64,000 nt of DNA from NCBI RefSeq assembly GCF_020382885.2, contig NC_058499.1, forward strand, positions 315,001 through 379,000, given 5' to 3'. The stretch is from Scatophagus argus (taxonomy: Eukaryota > Chordata > Actinopteri > Scatophagidae). This document shows, piece after piece, positions 42,165 to 64,000 of the stretch; the first letter of the stretch is position 1; each line of letters starts with the position of its first letter. The position numbers and the translations under genes are program-made. A model generated the notes under the pieces. The model searched no databases. It was given only the letters and a program-made list of their open reading frames with translations, and was not told the DNA's origin.

Positions 42165-45100
42165 TCATTGATCCTCCAACTGTGCCACCGCAGTGCGCAG
42201 TTTATCCACCAGTGCTGCAGAGGAGAAAGACAGCCACAATTTATTAATCAATGACACTTTTTAAACATGTCAAATTATGTTAAAGCATGTAGGAAAAATG
42301 TCCTCCATAAACACTCAATAGAGGCAACTCACCTCCAGCAGACGGTCTGTGAAAGCTGTCATAGGCCCGACAGGCTTTGATCAGATGTCCCAGTGCTGCA
42401 GGACAGTCGGCAGGGAGCGGCTCCTGAAATTTCTCCTCGCACACTTTCTGATAGATGTCCTGATCCGAGAAACCTGCAACAAAAGTGACAGCACATTAAA
42501 GAACAAACGTAGAAGCCAGCAATTCTATAGTTTAATTTATTTTCATCCATTCATGCAGCCTGGCTTCATGGATGGCAGTGTTGGTGGGCCCTGCTGAGGT
42601 ACCTCTGAGCAGGACCCAGGAGACCTGTGTAGACAAAGGCTGAATGAATGAATAGAAATGAACTGCACACACTGTATAAAATGAATTGTATTTGAATGAT
42701 TCTAAATGAGTGTCAAACAGAAGCCAAACAGTTTGTGCAAAAGCGTGATTCTCCGGCAAGTCAGTGCAAAATTATGTCACTTGGTGCCCATTTTAAGCAA
42801 CATGACTTCACGCTGACCACAGCCGCTGTGGGCTGAGAAAGAGGAAACGTCTCGTCAAGCCTGCAGGAGGTGAGCACTCGATGCTGAAAACAGTTGACTG
42901 CTATGATCTGCAGATACACACCTTCAAAAGGTCTCCTACGGGTCGCAATTTCCCACAGGACCACTCCAAAGCTGAAAGACAACGTTTACATGTTGTTGAG
43001 GACACATTTTATTTGGTTCTCTTCACTTGAAATGTGCACAGTTTGAAATCCGAATTTAACATCCAGTATGTAACTTGCTCATGTATAACGTGGGAACTTG
43101 AAGCTTTCTTGAAAGTTGTAATTAATGATGAATAAATCATTTACTAATGCTTTATATTAAATTTTAAGAAGAAGAGCATTTGGGTTGCCAGGTGGGTGTT
43201 TTAATTTGTCATCTGAACGGCTGCAGAGCATCTGGACCAGATAAGATAAGATAGGTAGATAGATCTAGATAGATAGATTTAATAGTCCCGCACTGGGGAA
43301 AAATCCCACTGAACGCTCTGCATGTATAACAGCCACCCACTGACATGTGAGCGCCCCCAAAGTGAAGCCCAAACATCTGCATCGCCCCCTGGTGGCTGGC
43401 TACAGTACACCTCCCCCCCAAACGCATTTTTCATATTCAGCGTTTACCCTGCGTGCCACGAGTCAGCACTGGTTATTATGAAACATAAGTTTAATAACTT
43501 CGAGAAATTTAATCAAGTAATCCTTGACGGTGTACCTCCAATCTGAGGCCACATATTTGCAAATGCAGTTACTTACGTTGTGTAATCTGTAATCTGTTTT
43601 TGGTAACTGACCTGTACATCTCATATGCTTTGCTGTAGACGTGGTTGATGTCGCTGAGCATCTGAGGAGGGGAGTAGCACAGAGACCTCGTCTGTTTGTT
43701 CTTTGCTACCTTTTTTAGCGACGTCTCGGTTTTTGCCAGCTCAAAACCTCCCAGCTGTAAAAAAAAAACACCATCCTCAAATTTAACCCCCGTTGACCAG
43801 CCACTTCAATCCCACCATTTATCAATAATCCCAGCATGCACTGGTCTCAGCACCTTGACTGTGTAGTCCTTAGCCACCAGGAACTTGCTGCTGTTGATGC
43901 ATCCGTGAACCTTAGACTTTACCTCTGTCTGGTGCAGCCTGAGAGACAGCAGTGAAAATCATCTTCTTTAGTAAATAATACAATTTAATGTTGCGCTAGA
44001 GAAATGTACCACTTCCTGAAGTATATCAGTAACACAATATAAATTCCATATACTGTGACAGTGGATTTATCTGAGTGATTGTGGGTGCTTGAATGAGCCC
44101 TCCCCCCTTCTTCTCTCCGTGTTTCCATCATGCCTCATACAACATAAAATGAATCACTGCAGACTCACCTGTAGAGTCCTTTTGCTGCATCCAGACACAT
44201 ACATGCTTTCCTGGTCCAGGACAGTTGGCAGTCAGAGTCCAGGACCTGACGGAGGCTTCCCTTCTCACAGTACTCCATGATGATGAGGAACTGAGGGCTG
44301 GGTCCTATCGCCAGGCCACATCACATTACTGTCATTTTCAAGGCTGAAGGTGCCTGAGATTCACCTGCTCCAGGTAACTCACCATCCTCCTCCAGCACGC
44401 AGATGCCAAACATTCGCAGGATGTTGGGCGACTCAAACCGCTTCATTGTTTCAACTTCCTTATTGAAAACAGACCGCACCTCCCTACATATAGACACAGT
44501 GAGGGACGAATACAGTACGTCACATATTTATACACACTGATACACAAGGCTGTGTGCAAATACAAAGACCGAGTTCACTGTTTGACTCACTGGCAGGGGC
44601 GGACGAAGTTTGACTAAGTAGAAATAGCACAGTGTAACGCAAGTATATACATTATCTAATATTTTGTGTTATTATTTTTGATATTTATCTCTGAACGAAA
44701 AATAACTGCTTTTCTTAACTGGAGGATGTGATTTTAAGTGGGAGTTGTGGGCACAGACCTCGGGCTGGTGTTCACAGGTTCCGTGTATCTCTTGACGGCC
44801 ACCTGGAATCCATGATACTCCCCCCTGTAGACCTCTGAGGTCCCTGTTGTCATGAAAGGCACTTTGGGATCATCGAGATACTTGATCTCGTCTGGTTTGA
44901 TCATTCGGATGACTTCGTCAGTGATGCTGGGCTTACTCACTGTGAAAATAAAGAAAGAAGCTGCTGACGGAGGCTCAGCACACACTCAGTCACGCTTTTT
45001 TCACAGCGCAAGGCTGCAACACAATGAACCATATTCTTTATCTGTATTTCAACAACAGCATATTAAAAATCAGGCCGTCTGTTCTTGTTGCAGAACCGCC

Positions 45101-47817
45101 TCTTCACATAAGAGATGTTGCTGAGGGAAACGGGCAAAGACTAATCAGGGCTCTTAAAACATCAAAATGATGTGTGGTCATGCTTAAAGAGCAAAGCCCT
45201 TAATAATGACATAACAATGACATTAAGATGGTCTTCCTGAAGGCTCACATGACAGCTACTGCAACACCAGTTTTTAAATGCAGTGACCCTCACAGGCCCA
45301 TCAGTGACCAAGCAGCAGTATCACACATAGTAGAGAAATGGGGCGAAGAGGGACTGATCTGGACCAAGTCCACCTTTTCCCTGGACCCAGTGCAGTTAGG
45401 ATTTAGAGCCAATCACTCTACAGTTAACTGCATCTTTATGGAGACAGTTGAATGGTTAAAGGCTGTGCTTTAAATCTTTGACACTGTAAATCATGCTGTC
45501 CTCCTCTCTAAGATATAGATTTCTCTCCACATGCACTGAGGTGGAGTCACACCTCTGTGACAAATCTCAAACTGTCAGAGACCACAAGTGCTGTCAGCTC
45601 CACAAGCATCCCACAAGGATCCATAGTTGGCCCACTTCTAGTTAGCTTATATGTTGATGATCTGCCATCCATTTGCCTAATGTGTGTTCACAGCAATACA
45701 AAAAGCCCAGGTGCTTCCAATGGCTCGTGTTACTGAAAGGTTAAACCACTGCTGTACAACTGAAAGTGCTCATATGTGTTTCAGAATAAAACAGAAGTCA
45801 GGACAAATGGAAGGAACACTTTGGTCTGAAGTGCTCACAGTGTTTGTCTGCTTCCTTAAAGGCTCATCTCGTCTTGTTGTGTCTCAGACGATGTGAGCCT
45901 GAAACACCGTGGAAACAGTTTGATAAAACAAAGTAAGAAGCAACATGTCAAGTGTAAGCTGGTGAGTTGGGAGAAATTCATCTATGAAACACGACCCAAC
46001 AATTATATTTATACTTCACAGTGAAATAGACAATAAAATGCTAGTGGATTAAAGATATCAGCATGGGCATAACTAAAGTATAACAACTACTTCTACTGCT
46101 ACGGCTTGTAGTACTACCTGCAATAGCAGTACTGACGCTGTAGCTTGTGCCCTTGCAAAGTCATTTTCTTAACAAACTTCCAACAAAATCCTGCTGTCAT
46201 ATATTTAGGTGTTCTGGTGTACTCACACATCTCCATGACATTTTCCACTTTGCTTTTGAGGTGTTCGAATTCTCTCATCATGGCCTCTGTTTTCTCCTGC
46301 TGGCTCTTCATGTGGTCCAGAAGCACTAGGAGACAAAGAAACACTGATGGAACAAAGGCAAGCAGACACTGAATCCTGATCTCACACATGGACTTAACTG
46401 GACTGAGAGCTCGTATCTTTCAGCGTTCATGTTTGCTCTATTGCCACACACAACGAGTGGAGTGAAGAAAAGACAAATTGAGGGAAGGTCGACGCCATTC
46501 TGGTCTTTGCAACATAGAAAAGGTTCTTGTACCGTTTCAGTTTGACCAGTTGAAAAGTATCGTGAAGCTTTTAGTTGACCTTTAAAGAAAGACATTTTAC
46601 TTTTACCAACCATGTTTTTGTATTTGCTCAATAAATGAACCATATTATTCTAAATTGAACCAACCTCCGGAGTTTATAGGGAGCTGGAAACTCCACTCAA
46701 GACTCAAGTTCCTCTCATGGGAATGAAGCATTCATGTCATACCGCAGCCACTGCTAATGTTGGGAAAGTTCACTTTCTACATGAACCAGTTCAAAGTTCA
46801 GTTCACAAATCTTAAAATGAACAGTAGTTCAGTTCATAGTTCATAATTCAAAATTTTGAACTAAGCTCAAGGTTCCTAAAATGAACTAGTTCATAGTTCT
46901 TTTCTCTCTTCAATACTCTGCTGCGAGCTATTATTTGTCAAAATTATTGCCACAGACCATGGAGAACCACAGACTATTATTTTATCAGTTTTAACACTGA
47001 AACTATGAGTCAGATTCATCTTCGTATCAAACGCCGTAGAGTCTGAGCGGTCTGTTGGGATGACCAGTTTCTCTTCAACACGGCACATCAGACTTTGCAC
47101 AGCCAACTATGAAATCATCCAACTGTTCTGAGTTGTTCAATGTTGTGAACACAAGTCGGAAACAATCTTTAAAACTTTTCTGGAGCGTAAAAAAAAGCCT
47201 GCCTAAAGTTTTTTGCATTTGTAATTGTCTAGAAATGTGATAATTTCAACAATGTATTGCTTTAAAGATCAAGTTGAAGCTCACGCAGAGCAACTGAACT
47301 GGTTTCTGTTGTCTTTACTCGTCATACAAGAAAATTGTCATCCACAAGCGGAGCATCAGTTTCCCTCACATCTCTTCAGTTCCCTGTCGTCCTCCCTCCC
47401 GTCCACCTCGTCCTCTTTCTCTCTGGAGGTCAGTTCAAACACCTGGTACAGCAGGCCCCCCTGCTCCACCTGCAGAGCTCCAGACAGGACCTGGAAGGCA
47501 TCGTTGAGACGTTCGTTCACGCTGTTGAACTCGTCTCCGTGGCTACTGGAGTTGAGGATGCGCTCCATCCAGTTGGCCAAAGTGTACTTCCTGATGAGCT
47601 CCTGCGCTGAGTTCAGAGTGATGCAGAGCTCCTTCAGAGCATTTTCAACGTCAGCAGAGGTTTGTCCCCGCCCTCTCTGTTGGATGGACCTCACCAGCTC
47701 TTCCAGGGCTTTGACCCGGTCAGAAACACGTCGGCAGCGCTTCTTGTTGGCCTTCACATTCTCCACCAGGGTGTAGATCTGTGTGGCCACGGACAGGATG
47801 GGGTCTATGAAGTCCAT
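42165..47817 (-). CDS. mlkl: Mixed lineage kinase domain-like pseudokinase
   Basis: Terminal effector of necroptosis. After RIPK3 phosphorylation the N-terminal four-helix bundle oligomerises and permeabilises the plasma membrane. The model is 477 residues (human 471) in 10 coding exons, 5' to 3': 47370-47817, 46227-46325, 44759-44939, 44383-44483, 44169-44304, 43854-43938, 43612-43754, 42922-42971, 42333-42473, 42165-42214. The 4HB domain is residues 1-125 ([20 protein letters not shown] matches the human helix). The brace spans about 150-182 and the pseudokinase about 205-460. VAVK keeps the ATP-site lysine (K232). The catalytic HRD is replaced by HGC (333-335; HGK in human) and DFG by GFE (353-355), as in MLKL. 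Adjacent Thr-Ser (361-362) sit where RIPK3 phosphorylates human T357/S358. A LINE fragment lies in the second intron. A putative non-coding exon is near 49,860. Very confident. Confidence 0.95.
43230..43300. repeat. GATA-rich simple repeat
   Basis: GATAAGATAAGATAGGTAGA with related units, followed by TTTAATAGTCCCGCACTGGG, which resembles fish retroelement tails. It lies in an mlkl intron. Confidence 0.6.
43325..43425. repeat. Dispersed repeat, copy 1
   Basis: Shares AAAGTGAAGCCCAAACATC, then CGCCCCCTGGTGGCTGGCT, with the sequence at about 59,060-59,135 in the same orientation. Both copies are non-coding. Confidence 0.65.
45225..45900 (+). mobile_element. Degenerate LINE reverse-transcriptase fragment
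   Basis: Broken frames give successive reverse-transcriptase pieces in the right order: a [15 protein letters not shown]-like stretch with [13 protein letters not shown] (about 45,295-45,440), then DTVNHAVL (about 45,480), [18 protein letters not shown] (about 45,610-45,660). Stops and shifts interrupt each piece. It lies antisense in the mlkl intron between coding exons 2 and 3. Confidence 0.8.
46764..46905. repeat. AGTTCA-motif repeat
   Basis: Many degenerate copies of AGTTCA and TGAAC in both orientations, including TGAACTAGTTCA, a palindrome. It resembles the sub-terminal repeats of hAT-type DNA transposons, but the ends are not defined. It lies in the first mlkl coding intron. Confidence 0.4.
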
Positions 47818-47924
47818 TATCAGCTGGAGAGAAAGACAGGAAGTTATCTGACCTGCAAATAAAGTTTAAGTGAGCCACAGTTAACTGAAATAACCCGAAC
47901 TGAACCAAACTGAACTGAAGCGTG

Positions 47925-54593: not shown

Positions 54594-55544
54594 TTAAGGA
54601 AAATGAGACTTCTTGACCACATAAGTGGTTACAACAGCTGTATTTTGTGCTGATAAAGTCATTGGGGCCAAATTTGCTTGCACTGGGGCAACAGTCCTTA
54701 GGACAGGTTTGGAAACCATGGTGGAGGAGATAACAACAGGGGACACAAAAGCAGGCTTGGATACAATGATGTTGGAGAAAGGCATGGGGGCCATGATTCT
54801 AGGCTGAGGCATGGGAGCAGCATGGATAGACACTGGCATGGGGGGCATGATGCTGACAGGAGATGTGGGACCATAGATTGGCATGGACGGCATGGGAGCT
54901 GTGGGACCATAGATTGGCATGGGCGGCATGGGAGCTGTGGGACCAGACATGGGCATAGGGGACATGGGAGCTGTGGGACCATAGATTGGCATGGGGGGCA
55001 TGGGAGCTGTGGGACTAGACACTGGCATGGGGGGCATGGGAGCTGTGGGACTAGACACTGGCATGGGGGGCATGGGAGCTGTGGGACTAGACACTGGCAT
55101 GGGGGGCATGGGGGGCATGGGGGGCATGGTTGCTTCATCCTGTCTCCTTCCTGAGACAGTTTCATACACTTTGTGCAGTACATTCCCCTGTTCGATCTGT
55201 AGAGCTCCAGACAGGATCTGAAAGTTATCAGTGAGTCTTTCATTGATCTTGTAGAACTTGTCTTCATGAATGGTGGATTTCAGGAAGTTCATTACAGGTT
55301 TAGACTGGGAATATTTCTCCATCACCTGCTTGGCACAGGTCAGAGTGGCACTGAGTTCCCGCAGAGCGTTGCCCACAGTGAAAGAGATTTGACCTGACCC
55401 CCTCTGTTTGATGGTGAGAACTAGTTCCTGCAGGGCCTTGACTCTTTGGGCGACTCGTTGTAAGCGGTCCTTGTTGGCCTTCGCATTGTCAACCATCTTG
55501 AGGATGACTGAGCTCATGTTCAAGACAAAATCAACTATATCCAT
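54594..55544 (-). CDS. Kinase-less MLKL-like 4HB protein with Pro/Met repeat tail
   Basis: Intact single-exon frame of 316 residues. Residues 1-125 are homologous to the 4HB domain of the neighbouring MLKL: KANKDRLQRVAQRVKALQEL against [20 protein letters not shown], and INERLTDNFQILSGALQIEQ against [24 protein letters not shown] splices to its brace and pseudokinase after about residue 149. This frame instead reads into seven 12-residue repeats of the type PMPPMPVSSPTA (145-228). A tail rich in Pro, Met, Ser and Val follows, with two VSKP motifs, ending KKSHFP. No pseudokinase exons were seen downstream. An acceptor (on the - strand TACAG, then CTAATCATGG) sits just before the ATG, as in mlkl. 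In MLKL the 4HB domain binds phosphoinositides and permeabilises membranes; whether this one does is inference. It could also act as a dominant regulator of MLKL, or be untranslated. I know of no named family for this architecture. Confidence 0.85.
   Translation of the reverse strand: MDIVDFVLNMSSVILKMVDNAKANKDRLQRVAQRVKALQELVLTIKQRGSGQISFTVGNALRELSATLTCAKQVMEKYSQSKPVMNFLKSTIHEDKFYKINERLTDNFQILSGALQIEQGNVLHKVYETVSGRRQDEATMPPMPPMPPMPVSSPTAPMPPMPVSSPTAPMPPMPVSSPTAPMPPMPIYGPTAPMSPMPMSGPTAPMPPMPIYGPTAPMPSMPIYGPTSPVSIMPPMPVSIHAAPMPQPRIMAPMPFSNIIVSKPAFVSPVVISSTMVSKPVLRTVAPVQANLAPMTLSAQNTAVVTTYVVKKSHFP
54861..55112 (-). repeat. Coding 36-bp minisatellite (7 copies)
   Basis: Exactly 252 bp, seven 36-bp units encoding variants of PMPPMPVSSPTA; the copies nearer the 3' end read IYG or MSG in place of VSS. 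The first three copies are nearly identical, which suggests recent expansion. The array keeps frame throughout. Confidence 0.92.
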
Positions 55545-56362
55545 GATTAGCTGTAGAGACAGAGAATGAAATGAAATGGTGCAAAACCAGACCCAATCAA
55601 ACTGAATTCAACTGAAATCAACAAAACCTCAAGTTGCACATATTTAACTGACCTGAGCTTAAAGGTTCTATGTGTACATTTATTTATTAACAAGAACAGT
55701 GAACAATTTCTAGGACATGTGAACAATAACAGCCCACCTCTATATCGCACGTATTATATTTAAGTCCACTGCATGTTATCATAGCTGTCCTTGTCCAGTA
55801 TCTTTAAATGTTTTAGTTAACTAGTGGGATTAAAGGACAGGTTAACACTTTATCCACCTGTGCCCACATGAAGATCTAAACAGTAAGTCATTTAAAGATC
55901 CACCAACAGAAATTAACATGAGGCTTCAGCAGTGTGATTAGACAAATCAAATAGATAGTCTTTGTGTTGCTGTTCTCTGTAAATTGGGAAGAAACTCACT
56001 TGCTTTGAGTACTAAAGCCTCATCTTAGTAGCAGATAAGCTTTGGGAAGTATTTTAAGTAGAATCAGGATTTAGGTCCTCAGCAGCTACGAAGACAATCC
56101 ATTATCATATTATTGCAAAGCCAGTTTCAGTGGCCATATGGTCGCCTGACTACTGCTTTAAGACTTGAGAAACTATGAAGTTATCCTTTAAATGTTCTTT
56201 ATCGTCTGCCTCTTAATCATTACATTACACATTCATAGTAAAAATGTAGGAATTGTCACAAAGTTAAAATGTTTTTAGTCCATTGAAAGTTCAGATTTCA
56301 GAGATTTTGGGCAGCAAGACCAGAAATTTGGTTAGAAATTATCATTAATGTATTATTTACCT

Positions 56363-56450
56363 GTAGACAAGCGGCCTGTCTGTATCCAAATGTACCAACA
56401 AGGCAAAATGAAAGTAGTTATGCACACAAACTTCCCCATTCTTCTCAGGT
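56363..56450 (-). other. Putative non-coding first exon of the kinase-less 4HB gene
   Basis: Ends in a GTAAATAAT donor on the - strand, preceded by text similar to the putative mlkl first exon. The intron to the acceptor just above 55,550 would be about 0.8 kb. The upstream limit is unknown. Confidence 0.5.
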
Positions 56451-57858: not shown

Positions 57859-60377
57859 TCAGCATCGCGGCCTGCTGGAGTCTCTGTGGAAGAGTCTCTT
57901 GAGGACCAGGAGCTGCAGGTATCCAGTCAGGAGGATGAGGAAGCTTTGGGTCGCCGACCACCAGGTGACGTAGCTGAGGTTGAACAGGAGGAGGTAGTGA
58001 TCCTTCCCCTTCCTCATGCGGGCGAAGTTGTAAAAGCGCCACATGTGGAAGATCTGATTCTGGATCTTCTGCACACTCTCCTAAACCAAACATGGTACAT
58101 TGTGTGTTCAGTTCAGTGTGACAGTACTTTACTTATTTAAATTTTAGCTCCCGCATGTCAATATTCAATTCAGATATTAAAATGACATTTTTGTAAGGGT
58201 AGATGATTGCTGTAGTATTGTTTGAGGGTGACAAGGTAACGAAGCACCTGCTGCCAGTCTAACATCACAGCCTCTAACACACCAGTCCGTCACCCCCGTC
58301 AGTGTCAGTGACATCACTTGTTCCACGTTTCTTTGATCTTTATATATTTTAAACACATGATGCAGAATTCTACTCCCCGTTCAACTGTAGTATCAAGCAA
58401 AACTGCGACTGTGAGACAAATACCTCAATATTAGCCAAAGTGTTGTTGAGGACTTCCTCTCCCTCCTCCATCTCAAGACCTTCGTAGATGACACCAAAGT
58501 TAACAAAGACCCTGATTCCTCCGAACTGGTTGTTGTGATTCCCAAGACACATCCGGTAAAAACCTGTCAGGAGGAAAGTGCAGGTACTGCAGAGGTGATA
58601 CTTGGATATGTGATGGACTCAGGAGAGTGTGTCGTACCTGTCTCCTCAGCCTGGAAGTTCATTTGACCGACGGGCTCGTTCTTTAAAGTGATGAGAACGC
58701 CCTGTGGTGAGTTGACTGTCACAAAAATCCGGTGATCAGTGGCCATCCCGGTTACCCGCTGCACCTGTGGTTACATACAAATAATAAACAAGTCAACAAG
58801 TGCCGTGAAAAGACTCAAACCGTCAGTCCGTCGTGACCGATATCGTGCACTGTGTATCAGCCAGATTTATGTTCCTTCATCACCATCAACACACACACAC
58901 AAGCTGCAGTTTATTTGGACTCACACACTCGCCATCTTACTGTCCTGGTGCCAGACACTCGCTACAAAACAGTCCTCAACAAAAGCACATTCCCTGCTCT
59001 TTGAATAACATTTGCTAAAACTGCTAACTGTATATAAAGATGGACGGCATCAGGGCTTCCTCAAAGTGAAGCCCAAACATCAGGGCGCCCCCCTGGTGGC
59101 TGGCTGCAGTACAGCTCATAAGCCCCTCCCTTCTGTCATTTTAGGCAATTCTTATCACACTGATGTTTGCTCAAGTGTTCATTTTTCTGATCAGTTTGGT
59201 TTTAATTAGTTATCTCCTATCTCCTAGGAGAGATAGTGATGAAGCTAGAATCTCCTATCATGGAGATTCTAGCTTCATCTTTGTTCAGTGGGAGGAAGTA
59301 GAACTGTGTCGTCCATCTGAAAATATGTCACTGGCTAAAACCTACTGTAACCGGCTGTTTAATGAAATCCTTGAACCTTTGTTAAAAATACATTTTTGAT
59401 GTGTCATCTTTAAGATTTACTTCTTCAGGAGCCAGTGGGCTTGGAGATGAAAGCCACTGTTGAGGCAGTGAAGCCATGAAATGGACTAACACACTGATGG
59501 TTTTGGTTGTTCAGTTTCTCCATAATAAGAATAATACAGAACAACACCACCCTTATCCTAAGTACATATAGCGGCACCTTCTTCAAACATGGTAACTTCA
59601 AAAACAGCATAGCTTTAAAGATGTAACAAGTGTGACAGTTCTACCCATAAAGCACACTATGAGCATACGTAGCTGTTATAGAGTATTTCTGATGGATCTG
59701 ACAGGTTAGGTGTGGTTAATATTTTAGCCTCCAGTGGCAGGCCTTCACACTTTCACTGTCACTGCATATTATTTCTGACGGTCCCATTCTTCAGTAATGG
59801 CTTCACCATTGCAGGCAAATACAACAAGTGGCAGCAAAATTGAAATATAAAGAAGCATAAAATATTAACATATTTGTTTGCAGAAGCATATAACGCTAGC
59901 ATTCATTCTGGGTTACTTTATTAGATTATCAACAAAGTTGTGTTTCGTTTATCAGTTCACAAGCATGAGAAAGCCATTGTTTTACCAAAGATCACCTCTG
60001 AGAAGTCAAACTGGGTCACCTTGAAAGTGTGATAAGCCTGAGAACAAAGGAAACATATACCTGGAAACATACTCTTCTCTGCATTTGTTCCATAAAAGTG
60101 CACTGAATTACGAACATATTTATCTTTGGAGACAAGAACAGACCCAGTCGTGCAGGTTTCCAGGGGAAAGTCTCACCATGTACATCAGGTAGAAGTTTCC
60201 ACTCTGCTGGGCAAAGTGCCAGAAACACTCCATCCCTGCAGCGGGAACCTCCATGGCAAAGTCATATTGATCCGATCCCCTGAACAAACCTGCGTCCACC
60301 TCGCCGAGGGAAGGTCCAGACCTTTGGGTCCAGACACGCTGAGAGATCAGCACTATGAGCAGAGTGTTGAACAGCAT
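57859..60377 (-). CDS. tmed6: Transmembrane emp24 domain protein 6 (p24 family), copy 1
   Basis: Type I membrane cargo-adaptor of the p24 family in the endoplasmic reticulum and Golgi. The model is 229 residues (human 240) in four exons: 60177-60377, 58638-58764, 58424-58563, 57859-58080. It has a signal peptide (MLFNTLLIVLISQRVW). A GOLD domain spans about 37-125, with the p24 motif CFWHFAQQSG and later FQAEETGFYRMC. A lumenal helical segment follows (FHMWRFYNFARMRK), then a transmembrane helix at about 194-216 and a short tail ending RPRC. The FYNFARMRK segment and the PRC terminus are characteristic of TMED6 rather than other p24 proteins. The tail lacks the usual FF-KKxx coat-binding motifs, as in human TMED6. 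A paralogue lies 3 kb upstream. Confidence 0.95.
59060..59135. repeat. Dispersed repeat, copy 2
   Basis: Counterpart of the sequence at 43,325-43,425, in the first intron of tmed6 copy 1. Confidence 0.65.
59238..59279. repeat. Perfect 18-bp hairpin
   Basis: GATGAAGCTAGAATCTCC (59238-59255), loop TATCAT, then the exact complement (59262-59279). A smaller palindrome (TCTCCTAGGAGA) lies just to its left. It is in a tmed6 intron. Confidence 0.95.
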
Positions 60378-60583
60378 GACTGCAGCTCGCTGCAGGGAGG
60401 ATGTGGCGAAGGAACCCGCTGCTTTCTGCTGTTGATTAGATCTTAGATATCAACTGGAAACAAATGACTTACAACGCTGTACGCTCGATAACATATCAGT
60501 ACAACTCAGCCATAGTCATGCATGGTGGACGTACAGGGTGAACTGCGGATGTCCATGGAAAAAATTCCATCCGTCCACCCATC

Positions 60584-60930: not shown

Positions 60931-61129
60931 GCTAATTTATGGATAAAATCATAAAAGAAAGTGTCAACAGGTTTCCTAAAACTCACCCAGTGCTTATTTA
61001 AAATTAATTTACTTGGCACCATCCTAATGTTAAAATTTAAAGAGGAAACCTCTTGTAAGATGGAGATTGATCTGACAATGATAAAATACACATAATACTA
61101 CTTCACCTGAAGACAGTTGTGTCTAATGT

Positions 61130-61765
61130 CAGGCTTTGAGCCCATGATGAAGTTGATAACACTGGGGATTGGGGCTTGGAGTCAGTGGTGAGAAACTGAC
61201 AGAGCTAAAGAGGCCAGGTACCGACATGGAGGTCATGAAGTAGCTGATAGACATGACGGCCATGGGTCTGTACATTTGCATGGGGGCATGACACAGCTCA
61301 CAGGTATGGTGACCCTGGGGATGGATGCTGGACTTGGGGGCCTGATGTTGTGAAGATCTGCAGGATTTGTGGAGCGAGTAGGAGGTCGTTTTCTCCCTCA
61401 TTGTTGTACACTCACTGCAGTATGTTTCTCTGTTCAGTCAGCTCCAGACAGGACCTGGAAGCTGTCCGTGAGTCTTTTGTCCACGCTGTAGAACTTGTCC
61501 CTGAGGCTGCTGGACTTCATGAAGCTCACAAAGGCTTTAGTTTGGGAGAATTTCATCATCAGCTCTTCAGCAGAGTCTTGCAGAGTTTTGCAGAGTTCCT
61601 TCAAAGCCCTGCAGACAGTGGGAGAGATCTGACACGTCCTTCTGTGTTTGGCGGTGAGAATGGGGTCCACCAGCGCTCTGACTCTCGGACGAGATGTTGG
61701 CAGTGCTCCTTGTTGGTCTTCGCCCTCTCAGCCATGTTGCAGATGGTCTAGCAGACTCTACTATA
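61130..61765 (-). pseudogene. Decayed kinase-less MLKL-like 4HB copy
   Basis: On the - strand, fragments align along the 4HB domain: AKTNKEHCQ, then VDPILTAKHRR, ALKELCKTLQDSAEELMMKF and YSVDKRLTDSFQVLSGA. These correspond to AKANKDRLQ, ALRELSATLTCAKQVMEKY and YKINERLTDNFQILSGA in the intact gene. The start ATG is TTG (about 61,765), helix 1 is partly deleted, and a frame shift lies near 61,690. After the 4HB region a Met-rich stretch (APMQMYRPMAVMSISYFM, about 61,260) resembles the tail of the intact gene rather than a pseudokinase. A functional shortened product cannot be fully excluded. Confidence 0.75.
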
Positions 61766-63082
61766 TTCAAAGCATCTCCGAGACCCACCCGTAGAGTCAG
61801 ACAGGCGGTTAACTGAGACTGAAGTGGTGCCACGGTGGGGTGAGTTTAACCAGGCTTTTCAGGCTTGCTGGTTATGACAGCATCTGGTTTCAGTAGTTTA
61901 TTTTTATCACATAATTAAATTGAAACAAGTGCCAGAGAAAGTCTGAGAAAATGAAATTTGTGTTTTTGCTTCTCAGAGGTTTACCTGAAACATTTTATGG
62001 TGCTGTGACTCAGACGCAACAACAATATCAATATTCTAATATTGTTCCTATCAGGTTGGCGTCCACGCTGTGGGGTGTGGAAACAGTCAAAAGAGTCCGT
62101 TCTAACAGCGACGGGCAGACCAGCACACAACACGTTTCAACCAATGATCCAGAAAGCGTGACGTCACAGAGCAGAATGAGTTTAATCCAATATATCAGTG
62201 TGTTGCTGCAGTGCATCACCCACGAGTCATCCACCCTGCGTCTTGTCCGTCTAGTCTTTACAGGAAGTCATTTAGGCCGTCCATTTTTTTGGAAGGGTGG
62301 CACGGGGTGGAGTTTCCTCAAAGTTCACACTGTGGTAAAACGTGACGGTGACACGTTGAGCCTGTTCACCATCGTCCCGTCCTGTCCGGTAAAATTAAAG
62401 CCTGATTTGAAGAAAGACGGTTGTCTGGAGCTGCCACATCCACACACAAACTGGATTTCATTAGTACACACCAGGTGTGTGTTGTGTGTTTTTACCAGGT
62501 CGTGGGCTTCTTCTGTGATGTGTATCTTCATTATTTCCAGGGGAATCTGCTCTCCAGGATTATGAGCTGATGTTGTATTGAGTTGTAAACCACACACTGT
62601 GTGACTCTGAGTTTTTCTCTGTTTTATTTGGTATGCATGTTGAAATATGAACACATGAACGCATCTTTTCATTTTTAACTTATGCTGACTGTAATTCACA
62701 CACACAAATCCTGTTTATTCAATTTCATTGAGGAGATGAGAAGGGAGGAGATGAGGAGGGGAGGAAACTAGGACATAGGAGATGAGGAGATGAGCAGAGG
62801 AGCAGATGAGGAGATGAGGAGGGAGGAGATGAGCAGATGAAGGAGGAGCTTCGTGCTCTGACATTCAGAGAAAACAGGAAACACTTGATTGAGTTGTGAG
62901 GCTGACAAGCTCCTTTTACTGTCCGACTTCAGAAACCCAAATAAAAACGAGGGAGGATGAAAAGAACGAAGGACACAAAGGAAGGACATTTATGTTATTT
63001 TTAGGAGGAACATTAAAACCTGCTGTACTGTGTAAAAAAGTACAAGTACACAGACAGAGTACAGCAGCCTGACGTGTTGGTG
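61766..63082. other. Spacer between decayed 4HB copy and second tmed6
   Basis: Non-coding by inspection. Contains a GAGGAGATGAGGAG-type simple repeat at about 62,735-62,845. The 3' UTR of the second tmed6 must begin at its right edge; no close AATAAA on the - strand was seen. Confidence 0.5.
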
Positions 63083-63936
63083 TCAGCAGCGCGGCTTCTC
63101 CTCCTCACCGCAGCTCTTGGTGATGAAGAGTCTTTTGAGGAAGAGGAGCTGCAGGTAGCCAGAGGTGACAACGAGGAGGCTGAGGGCTGTCGACCACCAG
63201 GTGATGTACTGCGAGTTGGACTGCAGCAGGAAGTAGTCGGCGCTCTTCCTCATGCGACCAAAGCTGTAGTAGCGAAACATGTGGAAAACGTACTTCTCCA
63301 ATCTGTGACTCGCATCCTGCAAGACAAGTACAAATACTGCAAGTATTAGTGTCATACTACGTCATTGCCACTACAAACACCAGTATTACTACTAATACCA
63401 TCAGTACTACGCTCACTTTTACCACCCTACTGCGTCCCTTCTGCCATCACAGTTACCACTTTGATTACATTTAAAAGTACAGGTTTTTTTACAGAGTAAT
63501 TAAACACACTGAGTACTACTTCTACTTTCACTGTGATGATTACTGCATGCGCGTACCTGTATGATGCTCAGTGTGTTGTTCAGGTCTTTGCTGACCTCCT
63601 CCTTCTTCTTCTTGGCTTCCTCCCTGCTCTTGGCGGGCTCTTGGAAGCCGTCGTAGTAAACGCCGAAGCTGAGGAAGACCTGCATGGTGCCGAAGCGGTT
63701 GTGGAAGTTGCTGAAACACATCTGATAGAAACCTGCACAGACATACGACAGGTGAGAACACACAGCGACAGGTGAGAACAGACAGACAGACAGACAGACA
63801 GACAGTTACCTGTTTCCTTTGCCTCAAAGTTGATCTGACCCTTCGCATCATCAACAGTCGACACTAACAGACCGCCGGGAGTGTTGACGGTGACAGACAG
63901 GTGTCTGTCATGGCCGACGCCTGTCACCCACTGGAC
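63083..63936 (-). CDS. tmed6: Transmembrane emp24 domain protein 6, copy 2, 5'-partial
   Basis: Tandem paralogue of the complete tmed6. Three exons are visible: 63810-63936, 63557-63732 and 63083-63316; exon 1 (signal peptide and start of the GOLD domain) lies beyond the right edge. The first visible exon has the same length (127 bp) and phase as its counterpart. Conserved segments include FEAKETG joined to GFYQMC, FHMFRYYSFGRMRK, the WWSTALS start of the membrane helix, and a tail ending EKPRC. It differs by a Lys/Glu-rich insert (EEAKKKKEE) before the conserved LNNTL, absent from copy 1. GACA microsatellites flank the first visible exon. There is no stop or frameshift, so it is likely functional. 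Confidence 0.93.
63772..63806. repeat. (GACA)n microsatellite in tmed6 copy 2
   Basis: Tetranucleotide run just below the exon 63810-63936. A second, interrupted GACA/GGCA run is at 63,945-63,980 on the other side of that exon. Confidence 0.85.
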
Positions 63937-64000
63937 CTGCACACAGACAGACAGACAGGCAGACAGACAGACAGGCAGACAGTTACAGCCGTGTCTGTAG

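Follow-up and report, generated by a model that had tools for sequence, protein, structure and literature searches.

Next to the ordinary MLKL gene of the fish Scatophagus argus lies a second, intact frame in which the killer domain of MLKL, its N-terminal four-helix bundle (4HB), is joined to a Pro/Met-rich tail in a single coding exon that is most likely terminal and kinase-less. In mammals, the pseudokinase of MLKL makes necroptosis subject to RIPK3; here the 4HB appears to stand on its own. The evidence that the frame belongs to a functional gene is of moderate strength. More tentatively, we propose that its product is an MLKL-derived, RIPK3-independent membrane-binding protein, likelier a modulator than a strong killer. 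Coordinates given below (Table 1) are those of the window, the whole 64,000-nucleotide stretch of contig NC_058499.1 that was analysed.

Table 1 Features of the locus in window coordinates; a slash marks the splice junction
Feature	Position	Strand	Basis or remark
316-codon frame of the 4HB-tail gene (MLKL_N 4HB and Pro/Met-rich tail)	54594..55544	-	ORF, Pfam, frame check
4HB part of the frame, residues 1-140	55125..55544	-	Pfam, PDB MLKL chains, identity to window MLKL
Coding exon, six bases ahead of the ATG	55545..55550	-	acceptor ...CTCTACAG/CTAATC-ATGG
End of predicted 5' untranslated exon	56361..56375	-	donor CAG/GTAAAT; predicted
36-bp tandem repeat, 7.1 copies, (M/P)-rich 12-residue coding units	54859..55112	-	
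Non-repetitive C-terminal tail, 84 codons	54597..54848	-	
AATAAA	54008..54013	-	sole AATAAA/ATTAAA within 1.2 kb past the stop of the frame
MLKL 4HB exon	47370..47823	-	donor GAT/GTGAGG, phase 1
MLKL brace exon	46227..46325	-	begins at 46325, phase matching 4HB exon
MLKL pseudokinase exons, seven pieces	42283..44985	-	window similarity
Broken third MLKL_N copy, then tail-related DNA	61129..61800	-	profile, alignment, codon comparison

An intact frame with an MLKL four-helix bundle

The frame is open throughout and encodes exactly 316 amino acids followed by a stop, as the original prediction had it; over the same interval, each of the five alternative frames carries between 9 and 22 stops. Residues 6-138 match the Pfam family PF22215 (MLKL_N) at profile positions 3-135 of 142, scoring 108.1 bits at an E value of 3.3e-31; the family cut-off is 27 bits. 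Solved MLKL chains in the PDB are matched by the same domain with E values of 3e-6 to 1e-4. Compared with the 4HB of the neighbouring MLKL, it shows 48.9% identity over 137 residues in a gap-free alignment, slightly beyond the 125 residues for which the likeness had been claimed. A Pfam search with all 316 residues returned no kinase match, and the family DUF7792 was matched only weakly.

The 4HB of the ordinary MLKL (47359-47817, minus strand) reaches 29.8 bits for DUF7792, where the cut-off is 27, and also gives weak PUB10_N and SesA matches. These profile matches hint at a wider helical-bundle domain family.

The Pro/Met-rich tail

The 176 residues from residue 141 onwards include 51 Pro, 23 Met, 20 Ser and six Lys/Arg, and not a single acidic residue (Asp/Glu). 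Besides the 36-bp tandem repeat, a 9-bp unit is repeated 3.8 times at 55096-55129. The tail had been described as a repetitive Pro/Met/Ser stretch with no pseudokinase; its composition and the absence of a kinase agree with that description, and the repetitiveness does not extend to the roughly 84 C-terminal residues.

When the tail was searched against solved structures, BclA alone was matched (E 3e-4), which we take to reflect low complexity. When the final 87 residues were searched against the genome at the protein level, with four candidates scored, the gene itself was the sole location. We also considered whether the tail arose from the intron that follows the 4HB exon in MLKL, for which there was no support: the alignment score of 12.5 was reached in 48 of 300 shuffles. 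Between 54698 and 55267, long frames are also open in another minus-strand frame (189 aa) and on the plus strand (110 aa); they look like by-products of the tail repeat.

The surrounding MLKL locus

Read along the minus strand, the genes are ordered as follows: an ankyrin-repeat gene in the flank, a p24/TMED gene, a broken 4HB copy, a second p24/TMED gene, the 4HB-tail gene (54.0-56.4 kb), MLKL (42.3-47.8 kb) and RFWD3 (about 36-38 kb). The ordinary MLKL thus lies 3' of the 4HB-tail gene on the same strand. Its 4HB scores 165.9 bits against MLKL_N, and its pseudokinase pieces, joined by hand, match Pfam PK_Tyr_Ser-Thr at 2e-34.

A WD40 piece aligns with RFWD3 (6cvz) over all of its 47 residues with 51 bits, ranked second behind a generic WD-40 repeat protein. 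The upstream ankyrin ORF matches ANKRD27 (4b93) as one among many ankyrin chains, and the name ANKRD27 therefore rests on synteny. PMC11476962 describes both genes as MLKL neighbours in fish and tetrapods, which makes orthology of the present locus to the known MLKL locus the likeliest reading.

The two tandem p24/EMP24_GP25L (TMED) genes, at 57859-60449 and 63083-64000 on the minus strand, are interleaved with the 4HB copies, and the second of them extends past 64000 into the flank (63.1-64.6 kb). Their p24 name comes from the final exon, which in both copies matches Pfam EMP24_GP25L; two other pieces of one copy lacked a Pfam match and were assigned through their likeness to the other copy. 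The pair shows 47-62% identity per exon, a saturated dS of about 2.4 (220 codons) and an omega of 0.15. Duplication of a TMED-plus-4HB block in a single event is unsupported, as this dS of ~2.4 stands against a neutral-scale divergence of the 4HB pair of about 0.5 substitutions per site (0.87+0.68 per codon).

Predicted splice sites and the missing brace and kinase

At its 5' end, the 4HB-tail gene is built like MLKL, whose 4HB exon has the acceptor ...CTCTCCAG/CTGATA-ATGG: the spacing of 6 nt between acceptor and ATG is identical in the two genes. For the putative upstream exon that the original prediction placed near 56,363, a candidate donor is present, with 56361 as the last exon base. At the other end, the AATAAA signal follows the stop at a distance of 0.58 kb.

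Past residue 125, the best donor of the frame scores -1.28, compared with 2.87 for the donor that MLKL itself uses. The top donor anywhere in the frame reaches 3.34, with its last exon base at 55326, within the 4HB and in phase 0; the score is a rough one, built on approximate site frequencies, and an unused GT inside the MLKL 4HB exon attains 5.11. We also compared MLKL pieces with the window ORFs (2684 ORFs of at least 15 aa). The brace piece found no second copy at E<=1, bar one chance match of six residues, and the eight brace and kinase pieces together found MLKL alone, bar chance matches of 5-13 columns.

Because no other brace or kinase exon similar enough for this comparison was found in the window and no good donor follows the 4HB, the exon is most likely terminal and kinase-less, as judged from these predicted signals. 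Splicing into unseen pseudokinase exons is rendered unlikely by the donor scores and the exon comparison. The initial description of a kinase-less MLKL relative is thus upheld by the MLKL_N profile, the MLKL-like locus, the failure to find an extra kinase or brace exon in the window and the lack of a donor past the 4HB that scores near that of MLKL.

One could also picture the frame as an alternative first coding exon of MLKL, spliced to the MLKL brace and kinase exons; it lies upstream of MLKL on the same strand and has the same acceptor-ATG spacing. However, its best donor past residue 125 is the one scoring -1.28, the stronger donor inside the 4HB is in phase 0 where the MLKL brace exon needs phase 1, and the gene has an AATAAA of its own. 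We consider such an arrangement very improbable.

A broken third copy and the origin of the design

Searching the genome (570.7 Mb in 48 contigs) with PF22215 led to three places, all of them in the window, after all six first-look candidates had been scored: MLKL, the 4HB-tail gene and, at 61.1-61.8 kb, a copy that is broken. The 4HB of this third copy is interrupted by frameshifts and stops, and its start codon and acceptor are unrecognisable; an open piece of it still scores 55.7 bits against MLKL_N. Its 4HB DNA is 68.9% identical to that of the intact gene over 347 columns, and 118 of 137 codons can be read in register, with two more being stops. The broken copy provides a natural near-neutral yardstick for its intact relative.

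DNA related to the tail follows the broken 4HB. Its local score against the tail of the intact gene is 24.5 (maximum of 18.5 in 200 shuffles), and against the non-repetitive part 20.5 (maximum of 17.0 in 300 shuffles), the shuffles preserving base composition only. Between the two copies, blastn and tblastx matched the 4HB and left the tail unmatched, and a protein-level search of the genome that started from the tail missed the 61-kb copy; the case for a tail common to both is therefore suggestive rather than strong. Since the broken copy bears related tail DNA, the design of a 4HB followed by a tail is probably older than the duplication that separated the two. An assembly chimera or a chance fusion of a 4HB with a repeat was rejected, as the 61-kb copy has related tail DNA beside its own 4HB.

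A scan of viral contigs with one alignment gave 254 stretches that fitted the pattern, none of which was confirmed as a relative.

Selection and survival of the frame

In a pairwise codon model of the 4HB-tail gene and MLKL (137 codons), omega is 0.32 with a 2dlnL of 17.7 against omega 1, at a distance that is saturated. A three-branch model assigns omega values of 0.51 to the 4HB-tail gene, 0.31 to MLKL and 0.93 to the broken copy. Of these, the MLKL value alone departs significantly from 1 (2dlnL 12.7); omega 1 is not rejected for the 4HB-tail gene (1.29) or the broken copy (0.10). Because the branch of the 4HB-tail gene does not reject omega 1, the pairwise signal may stem mainly from the MLKL side. 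The proposed check for purifying selection on the 4HB thus came out divided: the pairwise value speaks for it, and the value on the gene's own branch does not separate it from neutrality.

The openness of the frame provides a further line of evidence. Neutral evolution was simulated in 8000 runs at the fitted length of the gene's branch, 0.164 per site. Counting stops only, the whole frame survived in 5.1% of runs and the 4HB part in 13%. With frame-breaking indels added at 0.02, 0.043 and 0.075 per substitution, survival fell to 0.2%, 0.01% and none for the whole frame, and to 3.0%, 0.7% and 0.04% for the 4HB; the lowest of these rates is an assumed one, and the other two follow if the broken copy is credited with 4 or 7 such indels, some of which depend on the alignment. 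When divergence is instead set at values between 0.05 and 0.2 per site, also assumed, the whole frame survives in 36% to 3.8% of cases by stops only. Under this model, it is unlikely that the frame has stayed open without constraint.

These numbers bear directly on the possibility that the duplicate is a relic, open by chance or functional until recently, with no present role. Its sister copy 6 kb upstream is already broken, the omega of 0.51 on its own branch cannot be told from 1, and repeats that are poor in stops stay open easily, as the stops-only survival of both the whole frame and the 4HB illustrates, most of all at the smaller assumed divergences; a recent loss of role would moreover give the same picture of frame survival. 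Yet whole-frame survival is at most 0.2% once indels occur at 0.02 or more per substitution, the 84 non-repetitive codons of the tail are open too, and the acceptor, the start context and the gap-free alignment to MLKL have all been preserved. A relic is, in our estimation, a rather unlikely account of the gene.

A candidate modulator of MLKL

The reading that we tentatively favour is that the 4HB exon of MLKL was duplicated in tandem and that the duplicate became an independent gene with one coding exon while retaining the 5' intron-exon arrangement of MLKL. The brace and pseudokinase exons would have been lost, or never acquired, and the exon would run on into the low-complexity Pro/Met tail. 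Transcribed and translated, as we infer, the product may bind membranes, the 4HB of MLKL, or both, without gating by RIPK3; the tail, presumably disordered, would serve as a spacer or docking strip. In partnership with MLKL, the protein could then modulate it through mixed assemblies or through competition for membrane sites.

Given the missing brace, a modulator seems to us likelier than a strong killer. The human N-terminal constructs N-154 and N-166 reportedly lack part of the brace as well. As described in PMC4725247, these two constructs are non-lethal, which argues for a modulator, and N-201 is lethal. Still, a missing brace need not mean weak killing, because the flounder 4HB alone, like flounder 4HB plus brace, killed HEK293T cells and inhibited the growth of E. 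coli according to PMC10825024, in which full-length flounder MLKL did neither. The same source cites work in which the N-terminal region of stickleback MLKL induced no cell death.

For the flounder protein, the double substitution N105A-D106A is reported to give significantly less LDH release and, in the 4HB plus brace, to abolish bacterial killing (PMC10825024). At these positions, matched to flounder by numbering and motif alone, the window MLKL has Asn105 and Asp106 and the 4HB-tail gene Thr105 and Asp106: of the two residues altered in the double mutant, Asp106 is kept and Asn105 is changed to Thr.

Instead of modulating MLKL, the 4HB could be constitutively membrane-permeabilising, an executioner restrained by transcription and not by RIPK3. 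Human MLKL2, which is without much of the pseudokinase, is reported to be deadlier than the full-length protein (PMC4725247); the killing and growth inhibition by the flounder 4HB alone point the same way, and the 4HB family match of the present gene is intact. The non-lethal human constructs N-154 and N-166, the missing brace and the altered Asn105 count against it, and a protein that kills constitutively, lacking any visible gate of its own, would require tight control of its expression. We regard this role as unlikely. The results obtained with a 4HB devoid of its brace point both ways, and we therefore keep the modulator as a tentative first choice, followed closely by the killer and the relic.

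A gene for a 4HB without brace or pseudokinase, placed beside a full MLKL, would test whether a genome can retain the killer domain when uncoupled from its regulator, and would also reveal whether it adds a further killer or puts a brake on cell death. As a small protein from a single coding exon, it is easily tested. Were it only a relic, it would still illustrate gain and loss in the MLKL arrays of fish, whose copy number varies. In its broadest form, the proposal is that a vertebrate lineage has made the killer domain of MLKL a kinase-free gene, a RIPK3-independent killer or brake with the Pro/Met tail as its new control; we think this possible, if doubtful.

Comparison with known systems

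Fungal HeLo/HELL and plant RPW8-type domains are helical bundles, active in cell death or on membranes, that can stand without a kinase. They come from other kingdoms and are joined to other partner domains, and their likeness to the 4HB-tail gene is by analogy alone.

With ordinary MLKL, the gene has in common the MLKL_N 4HB, a locus flanked by RFWD3 and an ankyrin-repeat gene, and the acceptor-ATG spacing. It differs from it in having no detectable brace and no detectable pseudokinase with RIPK3 phosphorylation sites; the Pro/Met-rich tail stands in their stead. Multiple copies of MLKL are themselves familiar in ray-finned fish: two to four genes are reported for 31.1% of 174 species, and of the copies in Perca fluviatilis, one is enriched in gill and another in ovary (PMC11476962). 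Copies lacking the pseudokinase go unmentioned in the abstract, results and discussion of that paper. Across the open-licence literature other than preprints, searched by titles and abstract openings, no vertebrate kinase-less MLKL gene was among the matches listed.

A parallel in outline is human MLKL2, in which, as presented in PMC4725247, the 4HB is likewise kept and much of the pseudokinase is gone together with the activation-loop sites. MLKL2 is a splice isoform of 263 aa, whereas the gene described here is a separate one that lacks the brace and ends in a tail not seen in MLKL2; MLKL2 appears to retain the brace sequence, and the antibody used recognises the brace (PMC4725247). Given this precedent, domain loss in itself is not new. 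Extra MLKL copies in fish are already known as well, and the new variant is a separate MLKL gene that is kinase-less.
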